Positions 56,336-64,000 of a stretch of DNA of 64,000 nucleotides are shown one piece after another. Position 1 is the first letter of the stretch. Every line of letters starts with the position of its first letter. A model generated the notes under the pieces. It worked only from the letters and a program-made list of their open reading frames with translations, was not told the origin of the DNA and did not search any database. The position numbers and the translations under genes are program-made. Where the stretch lies: NCBI GenBank assembly GCA_017429505.1, contig JAFROW010000001.1, forward strand, positions 48,466-112,465. Direction: 5' to 3'. This stretch comes from Clostridia bacterium. Lineage in GTDB: Bacteria; Bacillota; Clostridia; TANB77; CAG-508.

Positions 56336-57069
56336 CTAGTGGTGGATTTTTCCTTTATCTAGCTCCTTTGTCTTTTCATATTGATAATCTAAAGCATTTT
56401 TTGAGCTTATAACTGATTTTCCTAAGTTTTTTTCTAAATCATCTCTTGCAACTTTTGCAGCATGCCCTCCCATTTTTGCAATATTTTTGTTCTGTTCTAA
56501 CCCATAAGGTTTATGTTCTTTTGCTAATTCTCTTGTAGCAATCTCACCTAAATCAGTTAGTGCAACTTCTATATCTGTCATATTATCTCTTAAAGATTCT
56601 TTTCTTATGTTTTTATACTTTTTGTATTCACTTGCTTTCATTCCTGACCAACTTTTATATATTTCATTTGTAAGTATTGCATATTCATAATCTTTTTCTA
56701 TTCCGTTTTCTTTCCATACATCTGTTAGTTTATTTCTTGTTAATATTCCTTTTAGTCTTGCTTCTATCCACTTATCACTATATCCTCTATTTCTGTAATA
56801 ATTTACTGCCCTTTTAATTGCAATCTCTGGGTCAAATACTTCATCAATTCTTTCGCTGCCCGTTTGTGCTAGCCATAGTTTAAATGGTTCTGCTTTTTTG
56901 CTTGGAACTGACTCTATAAGTCTTAAAATTCCTTTTGTATCTAATGTATCTGTTAATCTGTTTTTACCATCTTTAGCTCTTAGTTTCAACTGTACGATTT
57001 TTTCGTACAGTTGACTTCCTTCTTTTGTTAATGTTCTTTTTATATCTGTCCAATATCTTTTAGGAGAAT
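56336..57069 (-). pseudogene. BRO-family phage antirepressor, 5'-truncated by transposon insertion
   Basis: The frame runs from 56989 (TTG, not a real start) and can be read upstream to about 57069 as SPKRYWTDIKRTLTKEGSQL and then LKLRAKDGKNRLTDTLDTKG. This is the second half of a Bro-N domain followed by the usual C-terminal region (SKKAEPFKLWLAQTGSERI, AILTNEIYKSWSGMKASEYK, KMGGHAAKVARDDLEKNLGK). The N-terminal part is missing because the mobile element begins at 57072. The rest should lie just beyond base 64000. Intact, it would be a DNA-binding protein common in phages and in Firmicute chromosomes. Confidence 0.85.
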
Positions 57070-57070
57070 G

Positions 57071-57087
57071 CTTTAGTTAAGTACACT
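57071..57087 (-). repeat. Left terminal inverted repeat
   Basis: Reads AGTGTACTTAACTAAAG on the minus strand, matching 63976-63992 with one mismatch. It lies between arms GGAGAATG (57063-57070) and CATTCTCC (57093-57100), which are themselves complementary. Confidence 0.75.
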
Positions 57088-57123
57088 AAAATCATTCTCC
57101 CCTTAAAATAAGTTATTTCAATA

Positions 57124-58824
<1,701 letters not shown>

Positions 58825-58895
58825 TTATAGTTTCTACTTTGTAAGTAGTGTTTATAATATACCATATTTCAAACTAAAAATTCAATACAAAAATA

Positions 58896-59159
58896 TTACT
58901 TTTGGAAGATTTCAAAAAATCTAGTTAGTATGGTGTGTTCTGAATCTTTGTTAAAATAGGTATTTACTTTATAAACAGTACCTTTTATTTCTTTTTCAAA
59001 GTTCAAATTTTGCTCTAAGCAAAAGCTTTTTAAATATTCTGTAATTTCTTCACTGCTCATTTTAGAGAGTTTGTTACAAAACTCATTCTTTAAATTTTCT
59101 AAATATTCATATTCTTCATTAGTGAGTTCAATTCTATATATTTTTTCATTATCTTGCAT
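58896..59159 (-). CDS. TnpW-like small transposon protein
   Basis: An 87-residue protein, helical at the N-terminus (YRIELTNEEYEYLENLKNEF) with a C-terminal GTVYKVNTYFNKDSEHTILT segment. This C-terminus resembles the short conserved core of TnpW proteins of Tn4451-family elements, and the position directly after the relaxase supports this. The start overlaps the relaxase stop by 11 bases and has AAGGAGG upstream. The family call is tentative; function is unknown. Confidence 0.6.
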   Translation of the reverse strand: MQDNEKIYRIELTNEEYEYLENLKNEFCNKLSKMSSEEITEYLKSFCLEQNLNFEKEIKGTVYKVNTYFNKDSEHTILTRFFEIFQK

Positions 59160-60426
59160 CTCTGTCAGTCCTCCTTTTCTTGTATTCAGGAGAGTTTTTT
59201 AGTTTCTGCTTTTCAAGTCTTGCTTGTTCACGAGCTTTTTTCTCAGCTTGTATTTTTTCTTGCTCAATTCGTTGTCTTTCTAATTCATCTTGTTTTTCTT
59301 TATCGAATATACCTTTAAAAAAGTCAAATACTTTTTGAGGTGCAAGTTTAATAGCATGAAAGTAATCTTTTGTTTTTTCTACTATATCATCATATAGAGA
59401 TTTCCATTTATCTACAGCATTTCTTAAATTATCAATTCTATTGTTAAGTTCATATATTTCTTTATCTGCGACAATTCCTTTTTTAGCGTATTCAGTTAAA
59501 TTCTCATAATCTTCTTGTTCTAATTCAATCTTTTTGGAGAATCTTTTTTGTTTTCCTAAATTTGAAATATCTTCAATTTGTTTGTCATACTTCATATATT
59601 CACTATAAGAAGATTCCTTTTCTTCAACTTTATTTGTAATGTTTTCTAGTCTTTCAGTATCTTTTTTAATTTTAAATTGTAGGTCATCTAAATGTTCTTG
59701 ATTACTGCCTTTTATACCACGAATAAAGTCTTTATAGCCACTATCAGACATATACTTAAAAAATCTATCTTGCAATAAGCTGTACGATTTTATTAAAACT
59801 GCATTTCCTTTTTTATCATATACAGGCTTTCCTTGATTATCTAATACTTGCTCTGATTTCCATTTATTACTATGGCTTACTTGATTTACTACTTCTTTTG
59901 TAGTTCCAATTAGTGCTTTATCTTTACATTTTTTTGTCCATTTTACTTCTTTTCTTACAACAGGAAGTGCCACAACATGCAAGTGATAATGATAGATAGG
60001 TTTTCCGTATTCTTCTGTTAAAGCAGTATTTAGCTCATCTGCATGCATTACTGCTGATATAATATTATTAGTTCCCATTTCTTGTTCAGCAAAGTGGAAA
60101 GCTCTCTCGTAAAATTCTTTTGCAAATTCGTAACCACCATGTTTTTCAAAATAGTCAGAGTTAATATCAAATATAAGTTCATCAAAAAGTTTAGCATTTT
60201 CTCTTAAACCTCTTAATGATACTTGTCCTTTATCAAGCAACTCTTTTAATTTTTCATTATAGGTAGTTTCACATCTTTTGTAGTGTATATTATTTTGTGT
60301 TTGCTCTAAATCAACATTCATATTAGAATATGATTTATTTTTTCTTTCGTTGTGTCTTTCAGCTTTAGTTATACTTGTTTTAGTATAAGTTTCTACTCTA
60401 GCTACTGAATAATTTGTTTTGTCCAT
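59149..60426 (-). CDS. mobV: MobV-family relaxase (TnpZ-like)
   Basis: A 425-residue mobilisation protein. The N-terminal MOBV domain has SVARVETYTKTSITKAERHN, the Asn-rich H-N-E-R region, and YHYHLHVVALPV, the metal-binding His triad. A coiled coil and a Gln/Glu/Arg-rich C-terminus (ERQRIEQEKIQAEKKAREQA) follow. It would nick at oriT and mobilise the excised circle with a helper conjugation system. GAAAGGATAT lies before the ATG. The hairpin-rich region at 60475-60699 directly upstream is its likely oriT. Confidence 0.93.
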   Translation of the reverse strand: MDKTNYSVARVETYTKTSITKAERHNERKNKSYSNMNVDLEQTQNNIHYKRCETTYNEKLKELLDKGQVSLRGLRENAKLFDELIFDINSDYFEKHGGYEFAKEFYERAFHFAEQEMGTNNIISAVMHADELNTALTEEYGKPIYHYHLHVVALPVVRKEVKWTKKCKDKALIGTTKEVVNQVSHSNKWKSEQVLDNQGKPVYDKKGNAVLIKSYSLLQDRFFKYMSDSGYKDFIRGIKGSNQEHLDDLQFKIKKDTERLENITNKVEEKESSYSEYMKYDKQIEDISNLGKQKRFSKKIELEQEDYENLTEYAKKGIVADKEIYELNNRIDNLRNAVDKWKSLYDDIVEKTKDYFHAIKLAPQKVFDFFKGIFDKEKQDELERQRIEQEKIQAEKKAREQARLEKQKLKNSPEYKKRRTDRDAR

Positions 60427-60474
60427 ATAAAATATCCTTTCTTGCAGGTAGCTAAGCAGGCGACCAAAGGGAGC

Positions 60475-60699
60475 GGTTACATACTTTCTTGCGAAAGTAT
60501 GTAACCCACTATGACACTTTCAAACTACGTTTGCAAAGATGTCGTGGGCTCCTAGCGGAGGGCTCATAAATTATCTAATTTTGCGATAGATAATTTATGT
60601 TTGGCTTCGCCAAATCAAAATAATATTTTTCACTTCCATTCAAATATTATTTTGACTACTGAAAAATTTTTGTGCTACCTAGCATAAAATTTTTTCAGT
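60475..60699. other. Array of six hairpins, candidate oriT
   Basis: Perfect or near-perfect stems: 14 bp (60475-60506, GGTTACATACTTTC arm), an imperfect long one (60506-60547), 13 bp (60565-60599), 6 bp (60600-60614), 13 bp (60616-60654) and about 20 bp imperfect (60658-60699). They lie directly before the MobV gene. Origins of transfer recognised by MOBV relaxases have inverted repeats of this sort; the number here is unusual. Confidence 0.6.
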
Positions 60700-61091
60700 A
60701 TCTTTCTGCTATGCTTTGTAAGAATATAGAGCAATACCTAGATAGTCTTTTTTAGCATAACAAAAAGACCCATTAGGCACAACAAATAAAACTACTGATA
60801 TTGCATTTTTTTTGCAAAGTAATGAGTTTTACTTGAAACATGCTAATCGGTCTTAACCACTGCTGGACATTTTACAAACTATTCTTCTAAACCAGCCAAA
60901 ATATTTTTCACCGCATTGGGCTAATAAGTTTCCTACAAATCTTAATTCTCTATGTCTCGAAAGTGGGAGAATAGCTTATTGTATCCCTTATTAACCAGTG
61001 TTTCGTGTCTATTAATTTTTCAGTGTACTATAAAATACAGATATTATATATCATAATTTTACATAAAAGTCAATAAATTTAACCATAATTA
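60700..61091. other. Non-coding gap between the hairpin array and the RiPP promoter
   Basis: One more small hairpin (GTCTTTT / AAAAGAC, about 60745-60768). Otherwise no ORF or RNA is apparent. Confidence 0.5.
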
Positions 61092-61120
61092 TTGAAATTT
61101 ACATAAAAATATGATAAGAT
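61092..61120 (+). promoter_or_regulatory. Promoter of the RiPP cassette
   Basis: TTGAAA (61092-61097) and TAAGAT (61115-61120) with a 17-bp spacer; the precursor starts 84 bases downstream. Confidence 0.65.
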
Positions 61121-61203
61121 ATTTTTGTTATTTTTATTATCTTGCTTTAAGCAAGTGTATATATAAATCCTATCTAAATAATTTTATACGAGGAGGAATA
61201 CTT

Positions 61204-61491
61204 ATGTTTAAAAATTTTTTTAAGACGTTGTTTGGTAAGAAATCTTCTGATGAGGATACTCGGAAAATAGAAGATTCCTGTTACTATTGGGCTGATAAAG
61301 ATGCAGTAGATTATTCTCCTTCTTTTACAGCACAGGATGTACTCTCTTCTACAGAAACAGTTAACGCTAGCGATACTACATTATCTAAAGAAACAGAAGA
61401 AGATAAGAAAAATACTTCTGGTGGCAGTTGGGGCTGTGGAGGAGGTTGCGGTGGAGGCTGCATTGGTGGCTGTGGTGGAGGTTGTTTATAA
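61204..61491 (+). CDS. RiPP precursor peptide with CXXX-repeat core
   Basis: 95 residues from the ATG at 61204, with GAGGAGGAAT upstream. The first 70 residues form a Lys/Asp/Glu/Ser-rich leader starting MFKNFFKTLFGKK. The C-terminal core has Cys78, 82, 86, 90 and 94, spaced every four residues with Gly-rich fillers (CGGGC, CIGGC), ending in Leu. This is the design of substrates of SPASM radical SAM enzymes that form thioether bonds (CXXX-repeat and ACGX-type systems). It is followed 17 bases later by such an enzyme. One more Cys (26) lies in the leader. Confidence 0.88.
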   Translation: MFKNFFKTLFGKKSSDEDTRKIEDSCYYWADKDAVDYSPSFTAQDVLSSTETVNASDTTLSKETEEDKKNTSGGSWGCGGGCGGGCIGGCGGGCL

Positions 61492-61508
61492 TCTCAGGAG
61501 GGATAGTA

Positions 61509-62543
61509 ATGGCACAAAAATACTTTGGACTACAATGGCATATTACAGATAGTTGTGATCAAAGATGTAAACATTGTTATATTTATGCAGGAAAAGATTT
61601 GTGTAAAAACAATGATTTACCTTTCGAAAAACTTTCTGTAATATTGCAAGATTTTATTATTACCAGTAAAAAAATGAAACGGACACCTTTTATCTCTGTA
61701 ACTGGTGGAGATCCTTTACTTTATAAAAATGTATGGGATTTTCTCGAGTTACTCAAGCAAAACAACATTAAATTTGCGATATTAGGAAATCCATTTCATA
61801 TTACAGATGAAGTAGCTATGAAACTCAAAGATTATGGATGTATTAATTATCAAATGTCTTTGGATGGATTAGAAGCAACCCACGACTTTATTAGAAAAAA
61901 AGGCTCTTTTACTGCAACCTTAAGTAAGCTTAATTGCCTGAGAAAAGCAGGAATTGCTACTACTATTATGGCTACTGTTTCAAAGAGTAATATCGACGAA
62001 ATTCCTAATTTGGTTGACACAGTTGTAAAATATGAGGTAGACAATTTTGCTTTTGCAAGATATTGCCCTAATCCAGATGATTTTCAAAATATTGTGTCTG
62101 CAGAAGAATATCACGAATTTTTAGGCACAATGTGGGAAAAGTTTATTTCCTATAAAGACAGTCATACGAAGTTTGTATTAAAAGATCATTTATGGACTTT
62201 ATTTCTTTATGAAAATGGTTTGTTTAATATAGACAATGTTGAAAATCCTAAGGATTTGATATTAGATGGGTGTCGGTGTGGAATTTCTCATATGACAGTT
62301 TTGTCTGATGGAACAGTATATGCTTGTAGAAGATGTGAATCTCCAATTGGAAAAGTACCAGAAGAAAGTCTGTACGACATTTTTTTTGGTGAAAAAATGA
62401 AACAATATAGACAGTACGAAAAATTTGAAGAATGCTCAAAATGCAAATTGAAAAATTTTTGTCGTGGTTGTCCATCAGTCGCTAAATGTCTTTCCGGTAA
62501 TTTTTACGGTAAAGATCCTCAATGTTGGAAAACAATTAAATAA
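61509..62543 (+). CDS. Radical SAM/SPASM peptide maturase
   Basis: 344 residues from the ATG at 61509 (AGGAGGGAT upstream); an upstream in-frame extension overlaps the precursor and is not real. The radical SAM cluster is Cys16, 20 and 23 in SCDQRCKHC, followed by SVTGGDPLLY. The C-terminal SPASM domain has LDGCRCGISHMTVLSDGTVYACRRC and CSKCKLKNFCRGCP, enough Cys for two auxiliary clusters. The start KYFGLQWHITDSC is like that of ACGX/CXXX-type maturases. It probably installs thioether crosslinks in the adjacent Cys-repeat peptide. No transporter or protease follows. Confidence 0.93.
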   Translation: MAQKYFGLQWHITDSCDQRCKHCYIYAGKDLCKNNDLPFEKLSVILQDFIITSKKMKRTPFISVTGGDPLLYKNVWDFLELLKQNNIKFAILGNPFHITDEVAMKLKDYGCINYQMSLDGLEATHDFIRKKGSFTATLSKLNCLRKAGIATTIMATVSKSNIDEIPNLVDTVVKYEVDNFAFARYCPNPDDFQNIVSAEEYHEFLGTMWEKFISYKDSHTKFVLKDHLWTLFLYENGLFNIDNVENPKDLILDGCRCGISHMTVLSDGTVYACRRCESPIGKVPEESLYDIFFGEKMKQYRQYEKFEECSKCKLKNFCRGCPSVAKCLSGNFYGKDPQCWKTIK

Positions 62544-62550
62544 CGTAAGT

Positions 62551-62584
62551 AACCCGTTTTGATTTTTTCAAAACGGGTTTTACT
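62551..62584 (+). terminator. Terminator of the RiPP cassette
   Basis: AACCCGTTTT / AAAACGGGTTT with a 9-nt loop and TTT tail. Confidence 0.8.
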
Positions 62585-62589
62585 ATTCA

Positions 62590-63426
62590 CTATTTTATAT
62601 AATAATTATTATCTAATCCTTCTAATTTTTTTATTCCTTTACTATCTTGTAATATATTATATTGCTTTTTAGCTATTTCATTTAATCTTTCAAGTCTTGT
62701 CTTTTGTTCTATTCCTTGAGCTATCATCTCGCTATTTAAATTTTCTAAATTACTCAAAATTACTAACTGAAGAATATTTGCATAGTCTCTCATATTGCCA
62801 TCTAAAGTAGGATTTTTATCTTTCCATTCTTTTGCAGTCATTCCAAATAATGCAACATTTAAAATATCTGTTTCATTGGCATATACATATAATTTTTGCT
62901 TTTCAGTTAGTATAGGAATTATATTTTCTTTTATACTATCAGTATGTATTCTATAATTTGTTTTTGCAAGTTCTCTTCTAACTGACCAATCAATTTTGTT
63001 TTGATAGCTTTCATTCTGCTTTAATCGTTCAAATTCTGTAATTAAATATAATTTAAATTCTACATTCAACCAACTTGCAAACTCGAAAGCAATATCAGGG
63101 TGTGCAAATGTACCTATGCTATATTTTCCACTGCTTGGAATAATTCCAATAGCATTAAACTCTTTCTTCCAACGATTTGGTGTCATAGTAAAACGGTTAT
63201 ATCCAACTTCATCGATTTTAATTCTGTGTGATTCCACGGAATTAAAATTTTCATTATGTAATTCTTCCCAAAGATTATAAAAATCAAAAGAATTTTTATT
63301 AGACATCCAATTACGTATAACTCCTGATGGATCATTTTCATTTTGATATTTTGCTAAATCTGTTAGAGATATATAATCTACATTATCTACTCTCATAACT
63401 CTAACTAATTTATTATTTACATTCAT
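62590..63426 (-). CDS. KilA-N domain protein
   Basis: About 278 residues from the ATG at 63426. The KilA-N domain has DYISLTDLAKYQNENDPSGV, IRNWMSNKNSFDFYNLWEEL, FNAIGIIPSSGKYSIGTFAH and PDIAFEFASWLNVEFKLYLI. A C-terminal domain of the DNA-binding phage type follows. The open frame extends to 63570, overlapping tnpV, but it has no better start; the ribosome site at 63426 is weak (AAAGAA). It is a cargo or regulatory gene of the transposon. Confidence 0.85.
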   Translation of the reverse strand: MNVNNKLVRVMRVDNVDYISLTDLAKYQNENDPSGVIRNWMSNKNSFDFYNLWEELHNENFNSVESHRIKIDEVGYNRFTMTPNRWKKEFNAIGIIPSSGKYSIGTFAHPDIAFEFASWLNVEFKLYLITEFERLKQNESYQNKIDWSVRRELAKTNYRIHTDSIKENIIPILTEKQKLYVYANETDILNVALFGMTAKEWKDKNPTLDGNMRDYANILQLVILSNLENLNSEMIAQGIEQKTRLERLNEIAKKQYNILQDSKGIKKLEGLDNNYYIK

Positions 63427-63524
63427 TTGTGTTGTTATAAGTTCTTTACTAATAATATCACTTCCAATCTCTTTAAATTCTCCACTTATTATAGAACAAT
63501 CGTTTGCAGCTGTCAAGTAAAAAT

Positions 63525-63887
63525 CTAAATATAAATTAATTCTTTGAATATAATTTCTTCTGCTGAACACTTATAATTATTCATAATTCCAGTCCATTTT
63601 AGTGGGTCAGTATCTTTCAAATGTTCATCAATAGGATTTTTCTGTAGCATTTGTTTCATAAGTATTTCAAATTTCCTTTTAGCTTGTTTATCAGTTTCAA
63701 CAATATGTTTTCTTAAAGTCTTGTTCATAAACATTATTATATATTCTGCTTTCTTATGATTTTTTAAATATTCTAATCTTAAATGACCATACTTTCCAAT
63801 ATTATAATCTTTTGCATATTCCTCTTTCTCTAAAAATAAGTCAGGAATAAAATAATCTCCCTCTTTGTGATAAGTTATCTCTACCAT
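63525..63887 (-). CDS. tnpV: TnpV-like transposon protein
   Basis: A 120-residue protein: EITYHKEGDYFIPDLFLEKE, GKYGHLRLEYLKNHKKAEYI, ETDKQAKRKFEILMKQM and WTGIMNNYKCSAEEIIFKEL. This is the TnpV signature (PF14198) found in Tn4451/Tn4453-type elements. AGGAGGATTT lies before the ATG. Its presence next to the right inverted repeat is strong evidence for the element type. Function is not established. Confidence 0.9.
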   Translation of the reverse strand: MVEITYHKEGDYFIPDLFLEKEEYAKDYNIGKYGHLRLEYLKNHKKAEYIIMFMNKTLRKHIVETDKQAKRKFEILMKQMLQKNPIDEHLKDTDPLKWTGIMNNYKCSAEEIIFKELIYI

Positions 63888-63975
63888 AATAAAATCCTCC
63901 TAAAATTTAATTTTACTACTTTTTAGAACTATATTTTATATCGTTTTCAGCTATCTACAAATATAAATTTTTAAA

Positions 63976-63992
63976 AGTGTACTTAACTTAAG
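63976..63992 (+). repeat. Right terminal inverted repeat
   Basis: AGTGTACTTAACTTAAG, the inverse match of 57071-57087. The final 8 bases of the window (TCTACTGG) are probably the BRO gene flank. Confidence 0.75.
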
Positions 63993-64000
63993 TCTACTGG

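Follow-up and report, generated by a model that had tools for sequence, protein, structure and literature searches.

The maturase SbtM is described as removing four hydrogens from Cys or Sec, a thiooxazole having been seen with the Cys substrate (PMC11002830). Thiooxazole peptides made by MNIO enzymes are reported to bind copper, and the paper on bulbicupramide and the bufferins notes that no protease is found nearby and that the peptide may remain in the cell; the same paper hesitates over a protective role and allows that structures of the class may be revised (PMC12538549). For mobile elements, Tn6104 of C. difficile, which is related to Tn4451, is listed with lantibiotic-synthesis cargo in a table not all functions of which have been demonstrated (PMC5704250, Table 3), and its TnpX/TnpV kinship, its 2-bp repeat and its nesting in another element have been described (PMC3158075). 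Lanthipeptide genes near genetic-exchange systems were reported in a 2025 paper (PMC12715929), and a sequence-similarity map of the rSAM-SPASM proteins exists, the main text of which does not list the ACGX system by name (PMC9062424). Both the enzyme family and the element type treated below are already known, and in the open-licence full-text literature we found no paper on the ACGX system under its names.

The window analyzed here, a stretch of 64,000 nucleotides from a gut Clostridia bacterium (assembly GCA_017429505.1, contig JAFROW010000001.1), is closed by a 6.94-kb element, in the middle of which two genes are located on the plus strand with an intergenic gap of 17 nt (Table 1). The initial annotation had placed a radical SAM/SPASM gene 17 bases after a precursor with five Cys at four-residue steps, and both statements were borne out: the precursor contains Cys at positions 26, 78, 82, 86, 90 and 94, the last five of which form the regular run. 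The suggestion that the unit has its own promoter and terminator held for the terminator, a hairpin with a T-rich tail 3' of the maturase stop codon (-19 kcal/mol, z -6.1; none of 200 shuffles equally good), but not for the promoter, since promoter-like sites were not enriched in the region (18 observed as compared to a shuffle mean of 20.2). A promoter of its own is nevertheless plausible for the cassette. The genes for the MobV relaxase and TnpV enclose the unit as had been claimed, and a KilA-N gene, missed earlier, sits between the terminator and the TnpV gene.

Table 1. Features of the cassette and of the surrounding element (positions in the window).
Feature	Position	Strand	Basis
Bro-N/DinD-like gene, C-terminal part, split by the element	56336..56989	-	weak sub-cut-off matches
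Whole Tn4451-type integrative mobilizable element	57063..64000	.	right end = contig end
Left terminal repeat AGTTAAGTACACTAAA	57075..57090	+	repeat search
Large serine recombinase (TnpX-like)	57124..58788	-	Resolvase, Recombinase, Zn_ribbon_recom
TnpW-like small protein (weak)	58896..59159	-	20.0 bits vs cut-off 25
MobV relaxase (TnpZ-like)	59149..60426	-	Pfam Mob_Pre 132.7 bits; NCBIfam MobV 60.8, below cut-off 100
Exchangeable cargo slot, approximate limits	60690..63530	.	L109 and L110 share only the arms
Promoter-like site	61092..61120	+	extended -10, 9/12 match; not above shuffles
Precursor peptide gene (acgA-like), 95 aa	61204..61491	+	ORF; homologues 5' of the maturase in L002, L003, L005, L054
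Leader motif YYW-x13-AQ, residues 27-44	61282..61335	+	branch-A precursor comparison
Core CGGGCGGGCIGGCGGGCL, residues 78-95	61435..61488	+	17/18 residues identical in L054
Radical SAM/SPASM maturase (acgM, TIGR04340), 344 aa	61509..62543	+	468.7 bits; invariant Cys; structure model
Intrinsic terminator-like hairpin, 12 pairs	62551..62579	+	hairpin search and folding
KilA-N domain protein, cargo region	62590..63570	-	57.5 bits
TnpV	63525..63887	-	117 bits
Right terminal repeat, inverted	63973..63988	-	2 mismatches to the searched pattern

The maturase scored above the cut-off of 400 bits for the NCBIfam family TIGR04340 (radical SAM/SPASM domain protein, ACGX system), in agreement with the initial view that the two genes form an ACGX-like RiPP pair with a radical SAM enzyme. 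The runner-up was SbtM (TIGR04082) with 191.5 bits, below its cut-off of 350 and covering profile positions 197-515 of 516 only, so that the N-terminal part of SbtM (1-196) is missing from the maturase. Heme b synthase came third with 124.7 bits (cut-off 500), and the sactipeptide and ranthipeptide maturase models PapB, StsB and SkfB were not reached (72.5, 68 and 66.4 bits; cut-offs 340, 625 and 300). SbtM-type proteins were found in three of 85 genomes from the class of a Desulfobacteraceae locus, and in the two that were scanned TIGR04340 ranked second with 146.6 and 158.5 bits, the third family reaching 87.2 and 86.4 bits. By profile score, the ACGX maturase and SbtM are therefore reciprocally nearest NCBIfam families. 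The Cys clusters singled out at the start stood up in the alignment: the radical SAM motif C16-x3-C20-x2-C23 and the C-terminal Cys 255, 257, 273, 309, 312, 318, 321 and 339 were invariant in all 36 aligned sequences, including the window copy. The eight C-terminal Cys presumably fit a two-cluster SPASM domain. At the N-terminus there is no room for an RRE, since the cluster motif already starts with Cys16 and the first strand of the predicted AlphaFold2 model spans residues 5-11. This model (pLDDT 75, pTM 0.78) was built on 9 sequences only, and its last 27 residues score below 50. Its structural neighbours include SuiB, SkfB, anSME, PqqE and viperin, and the best PDB sequence match of the maturase is the sactipeptide maturase SkfB. 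Because the neighbours of the predicted fold span several chemistries, the structure was dropped as a pointer to the reaction.

Relatives above the cut-off numbered 15 in 385 genomes of the order, 16 in 391 of the class and 13 in 390 of the family, in samples that overlap and that each contain the window's own genome. A scan of genome contigs gave 12 loci, six of which (L002-L007) were 50-100% identical, and a plasmid search returned four records with relatives at 46-53% identity, two of them versions of one plasmid. Carriage of the window maturase by a phage or plasmid was rejected: no phage record was found, no viral contig contained the maturase by exact patterns derived from the window protein alone, and no plasmid contained DNA close to the cassette. 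In a maximum-likelihood tree of 65 rows, the ACGX rows grouped together (98/98) and split into two sister branches, namely branch A, to which the window belongs (support 99/96; its 19 rows include L108, the duplicate of the window copy), and the classical branch B (19 rows; 100/99). SbtM joined the ACGX rows next (96/90), followed by L101-L103, which score below the cut-off and come from one other family of the class. Absent from the tree are near-copies or partial copies (L002, L005, L007), a split gene (L083), a gene with a stop codon (L093) and a partial gene (L029). The SbtM rows sit on a long branch (2.26) and were flagged for atypical letter composition, and several outgroup rows are also long, which makes the order of the outer groups less certain than the split between A and B.

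A Cys-rich precursor ORF was located just 5' of the enzyme gene in 37 of the 40 ACGX loci searched, the exceptions being L097, L098 and L107. The window precursor ends in GCGGGCGGGCIGGCGGGCL, and its five repeat Cys are followed by Gly at three positions and by Ile and Leu at the other two. When the whole 95-aa protein was shuffled 300,000 times, five Cys spaced regularly by four arose in 5 cases; shuffling the last 20 residues alone, again 300,000 times, gave 102 such cases. No NCBIfam model matched the window precursor at E<=1, neither TIGR04341 (ACGX-repeat peptide, cut-off 28 bits) nor TIGR04117 (CXXX-repeat target peptide, cut-off 50), which gave 9.9 bits with the relative L046. Among eight other precursors scanned, TIGR04341 exceeded its cut-off with L044 (31.2 bits) and L082 (73.8 bits), matched L006 (15.5 bits) and L083 (12.9 bits) weakly, and had no match to the four from the window's branch. 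A CXXX-repeat peptide and a classical ACGX peptide were both ruled out by these models. The search against RiPP-family models recommended at the outset thus gave a positive answer for the maturase (TIGR04340) and a negative one for the precursor.

Comparison of the branch-A precursors revealed a leader motif, [YF]W-x11-13-AQ, in 18 of 19 sequences (near-copies counted), the exception being L047 with FQQ. The relatives display NYW, NFW or AYW, then x11-13 and AQ. The residue preceding [YF]W is Asn in 17 of the 19 precursors, Ala in L004 and Tyr in the window copy only, and the YYW in place of NYW might mean that the window leader is weakened. The core CGGGCGGGCIGGCGGGC recurs in L054, which belongs to another taxonomic family of the order, with a single change of the final Leu to Ile; eight of its codons are identical, nine synonymous and one non-synonymous. 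Outside the core, 21 of 77 leader residues are identical between the two, and the enzymes are 66% identical. This match, as compared to the divergent leader, is the best sign that the core itself, beyond the operon, may be under selection. Other cores vary widely, for example CSCNCSSGCSACSSSC... and CSCGVGGCGSGGGC... Both L003 and L005 retain the last four repeat Cys, but L003 lacks the first one and L005 contains two extra, so that five is no fixed number. Judged from these alignments and profile scores, the gene pair, its enzyme family, the leader motif and the conserved core are well established.

Gene neighbourhoods up to 8 kb on either side of the enzyme were compared using phmmer with reference proteins, most of them Pfam-named. 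In the 21 loci of branch B, we observed HxlR in 20, macrodomain, Sir2, nitroreductase and PNPOx/4Fe-4S proteins in 15 each, DUF1848 in six, a zinc-type dehydrogenase in five and a methyltransferase in none, these counts being of loci and not of independent events, as several B loci come from one family and branch A includes the near-copies L108, L002 and L104. HxlR, macrodomain, Sir2, nitroreductase, PNPOx/4Fe-4S, DUF1848 and zinc-type dehydrogenase were all absent from the 19 branch-A loci, 10 of which lack over 1 kb of the 8-kb flank on one or both sides. The Sir2 reference protein lies just under its Pfam cut-off (22.7 vs 24), and a plasmid relative is annotated with Sir2 and protein-ADP-ribose hydrolase. 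For the HxlR protein of L044, the closest model is that of the redox regulator RrpB, whose cut-off is not reached (123.8 vs 175 bits). The setting of the classical ACGX loci, with HxlR, nitroreductase, macrodomain and Sir2, thus appears redox-like from gene content. A classical ACGX-like locus (L083) was also seen near BREX genes on the archaeal Methanosphaera plasmid pNP174, where the rSAM gene is annotated in two pieces. In L101-L103, the rSAM protein scores below the ACGX cut-off (284-308 bits) and no Cys-repeat precursor was found; the gene pair directly downstream resembles, by eye, what we take to be AgrB and an AgrD-like autoinducer peptide.

The cassette itself encodes neither an exporter nor a protease nor an immunity protein. 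Within 5 kb, ABC-ATPase signatures turned up at three of the 19 branch-A loci, in one case in what looks by eye like an SMC protein. Among the matches listed, none of the transporter or peptidase families hit two or more of 88 branch-A neighbour proteins. These 88 were scanned out of 105; the other 17 are six L002 genes, two precursor ORFs, four methyltransferases, three L055 mobile-element genes and two small ORFs. The lack of an exporter and a protease, which the initial annotation regarded as special, is therefore ordinary: the bare pair is the usual form of branch A, across whose loci no exporter or protease recurs. A TehB-type methyltransferase adjoins the enzyme in 10 of the 19 branch-A loci (upstream in L077); the window has none. 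As a separate observation, its gene is broken by a +1 shift of frame, at one and the same alignment position in all eight loci where both parts are visible (L045, L046, L050, L051, L055, L105, L107 and L077), always at a frame-0 CGG codon and with both halves conserved. It is a single intact ORF in L004 and is cut by the contig end in L052. From the sequence, the split resembles a programmed frameshift at a rare codon.

The Tn4451-like mobilizable carriage proposed initially was confirmed by the serine recombinase, TnpV, the Mob_Pre relaxase and a 2-bp direct repeat GG, read by eye at both junctions. The N-terminal part of the split Bro-N/DinD-like gene, named by eye, opens contig C6. Across 57063-64000, the window is 95.4% identical to L002 from another MAG. 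Two sister elements, L109 (genome G338) and L110 (G360), are 87-89% identical in the left arm from recombinase to relaxase and 84-86% identical in the right arm with TnpV and the end, and carry different cargo: CN-hydrolase, GNAT and nucleotidase genes in L109 (6492-8548), and genes for a pyruvate-kinase-like barrel, adenylosuccinate synthetase, a uridine-kinase-like protein and a protein kinase in L110 (5175-10155). The shared arms and exchanged cargo define the slot in Table 1, which here contains the cassette and the KilA-N gene. In L003, a 2.0-kb derivative remains, made up of the two ends, the cassette and 0.1 kb that derives from next to the relaxase gene, and L005/L007 keep the cassette with scraps of KilA-N and TnpV. 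The KilA-N gene is retained in L002, fragmented in L007 and mostly absent from L003.

Elsewhere in the assembly to which the window belongs, contigs C2 and C6 begin with the final 141 bases of the element, and C11 finishes with its initial 141 bases. C14 and C6 flank the split Bro-N/DinD-like gene, and C2 runs on into the relaxase gene of a resident element. It is possible that the element is present at two sites in one genome or that two strains share one bin; on excision as a circle, the two insertion points bear only indirectly. The insertions in L002 and L109 lie between a serine recombinase gene and a relaxase gene, and the L110 insertion has a serine recombinase on one side and, on the other, sequence that starts like the relaxase gene before the contig ends; L111 has the same left flank. 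Comparison of these copies clearly shows the ends of the element, the exchange of its cargo and its presence at several sites. Insertions recur beside resident recombinase and relaxase genes at a CCCCGAGTT...AACTCATAGG hairpin (L002 5560 and 12486; L109; L110; G000 C11/C2), which is possibly an origin of transfer. Mobile genes (Mob_Pre, TnpV, Recombinase, Phage_integrase) were found within 10 kb of acgM in 10 of 20 genomes among the matches listed, as compared to 3.2 expected from the density of such genes (simulated P 0.0002), in a test where one genome (G037) is of the classical branch, many of the 10-kb flanks are cut by contig ends and genome sizes are rounded. Without G312, which has the same element, and with G151, possibly a housekeeping Xer, set to none, the count was 8 of 19 among the matches listed (expected 2.8, P 0.003).

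The cassette stretch is 96.3% identical to L003, whereas the single matching chromosomal stretch (3.6 kb) is 69.5% identical. With L003 and L005 together, the cassette identity is 96-97%, and the one chromosomal stretch of L005 that matches (0.4 kb) is 72.5% identical. The near-identity of the cassette in organisms with divergent chromosomal stretches indicates recent horizontal transfer: in the two chromosomal stretches that could be compared, the organisms sharing the cassette are only about 70% identical. CGG makes up one of one Arg codons in the precursor and two of 10 in the maturase, as compared to five of 590 in the long ORFs of the window; three of these five fall in the long ORF containing the maturase. 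The recurrence in the cassette genes of a codon that is rare in the window can be read as atypical codon usage.

For leader binding, reaction, place of action, function and present mobility, we infer the following. The radical SAM/SPASM enzyme AcgM would bind the leader with its [YF]W-x11-13-AQ motif and oxidize the Cys residues in the Gly-rich core at the C-terminus. The likeliest reaction is the conversion of Cys to thiooxazole with a loss of 4 Da each, by kinship with SbtM, and thioethers with a loss of 2 Da each come second. This order follows from the SbtM kinship, from the similarity of the SG-Sec-GG repeats to G-Cys-GG and from the missing N-terminal room for an RRE; SbtA-like frames with SG-Sec-(G/S)G-type repeats were found 5' of three SbtM genes when TGA was read as Sec. 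On this analogy, we regard the conversion to thiooxazoles as about evenly balanced, and that to thioethers as the second choice and distinctly less probable. As no dedicated exporter or protease was seen in branch A, the product would probably remain intracellular and serve in thiol/redox or metal handling. The cassette rides in the exchangeable middle of the Tn4451-type integrative mobilizable element, which would move by means of its serine recombinase, with GG as the 2-bp core, and would probably be mobilizable via the MobV relaxase. Taken as a whole, the account of a two-gene RiPP-type cassette with SbtM-like Cys oxidation, an intracellular product and Tn4451-type cargo is moderately probable. 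Against this account count the maturase score far below the SbtM cut-off, the missing N-terminal part, the long and compositionally atypical SbtM branch, the mixed chemistries among the fold neighbours with SkfB as best PDB sequence match, the Ile and Leu after two of the five Cys, the varying number of Cys, the YYW of the window leader and the redox genes, which belong to the sister branch and not to the window's own.

A rather unlikely alternative is that AcgM joins Cys through thioethers to Gly or to other carbons, as in sactipeptides or ranthipeptides, to give a bacteriocin or signal. It would suit a radical SAM/SPASM enzyme with a Cys-rich core, the position of SkfB as best PDB sequence match and the structural proximity of SuiB and SkfB, but the PapB, StsB and SkfB models scored far lower, no N-terminal extension is able to hold an RRE, and exporter, protease and immunity genes are missing from the cassette, with no recurrent transporter or peptidase family among the 88 branch-A neighbours in the matches listed. 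The initial expectation of a 2-Da loss per crosslink presumed such thioethers, while SbtM, the closest family with a described reaction, takes four hydrogens; the antimicrobial or signalling role suggested along with it found no support, the context of the sister branch pointing to redox or thiol stress. Less probable still is another radical SAM outcome, such as formylglycine-like oxidation, epimerization or the making of a cofactor, in which the Cys-rich core would be a substrate or would bind metal. The structural neighbours anSME and PqqE and the rank of heme b synthase as next family after SbtM are in its favour, yet the heme-family score is far under its cut-off, and the frequency of Cys-rich precursors together with the core conservation in L054 fits a peptide end product.

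We also considered that the cassette might be a decaying passenger, an inactive remnant carried by the element, and found this very improbable. Genes of the element are indeed partly decayed in L002, where TnpV has a stop, and in L005/L007, and the window leader contains the specific change N27Y. Both cassette frames are, however, intact in the window, L002 and L003, non-synonymous changes are fewer than synonymous ones per site in both genes as compared to L003 and L005 (ratio 0.19-0.48, with few changes), the core in L054 is unchanged except for one residue, and the 2-kb derivative L003 dropped the recombinase and relaxase and retained the cassette.

Within the preferred reading of SbtM-like oxidation and an intracellular product, a redox or metal role is favoured over an antibiotic by the parallel with the MNIO thiooxazoles and by the HxlR/Sir2/macrodomain loci, and the context of the relatives suggests thiol or metal handling more than antibiosis. 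A tentative extension, which we consider possible and not probable, is that ACGX peptides are an anaerobic counterpart of the MNIO-made bufferins, with thiooxazoles made by a radical SAM enzyme and an intracellular metal or electrophile binder as product, one branch having shed the redox context to spread as bare cargo. If so, the classical operons would tie the ACGX peptide to an HxlR/Sir2/macrodomain redox response. Through the comparison, the ACGX system gains a testable chemistry (minus 4 vs minus 2 Da per Cys), with the leader motif, the conserved core and the classical redox-like operon as further concrete handles, and the mobile branch represents a modification system compact enough for 1.3 kb of cargo. 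Among the matches listed in the open-licence literature, we found no description of branch A with its leader motif and CGGG core, of a kinship with SbtM or of the redox genes that surround classical ACGX loci.

As compared to the known systems, the locus resembles the ACGX system (TIGR04340 acgM, TIGR04341 acgA) in a maturase well above the cut-off, a precursor directly upstream, a two-gene core and Cys/Gly-rich C-terminal repeats. It differs in a precursor unrecognized by TIGR04341, in CGGG instead of ACGX repeats, in the leader [YF]W-x11-13-AQ instead of the classical short MALSNLxxW-type start, and in lacking HxlR, nitroreductase, Macro and Sir2 neighbours. The SbtM/SbtA thio(seleno)oxazole RiPPs have the reciprocally nearest enzyme family and likewise Sec or Cys in Gly-rich repeats, whereas the window locus has no Sec and its enzyme lacks the N-terminal part (profile 1-196) and scores under the SbtM cut-off. 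The MNIO/DUF692 thiooxazole RiPPs, such as bufferins and bulbicupramide, are alike in having a Cys-containing peptide beside its enzyme (PMC12538549); MNIO is, however, a non-haem iron enzyme unrelated to radical SAM, and the metal role of the window peptide is putative. A RiPP cassette on a Tn4451-like element, initially thought to be new, is not wholly so, as Tn6104 appears to provide a precedent (PMC5704250). The element is similar to Tn4451, Tn4453 and Tn6104, as described in PMC5704250 and PMC3158075, in its TnpX-type serine recombinase, TnpV, relaxase, 2-bp direct repeat and the carriage of cargo, and differs from them in a weakly matched TnpW and in the cargo itself, an ACGX-type rSAM cassette together with a KilA-N gene.
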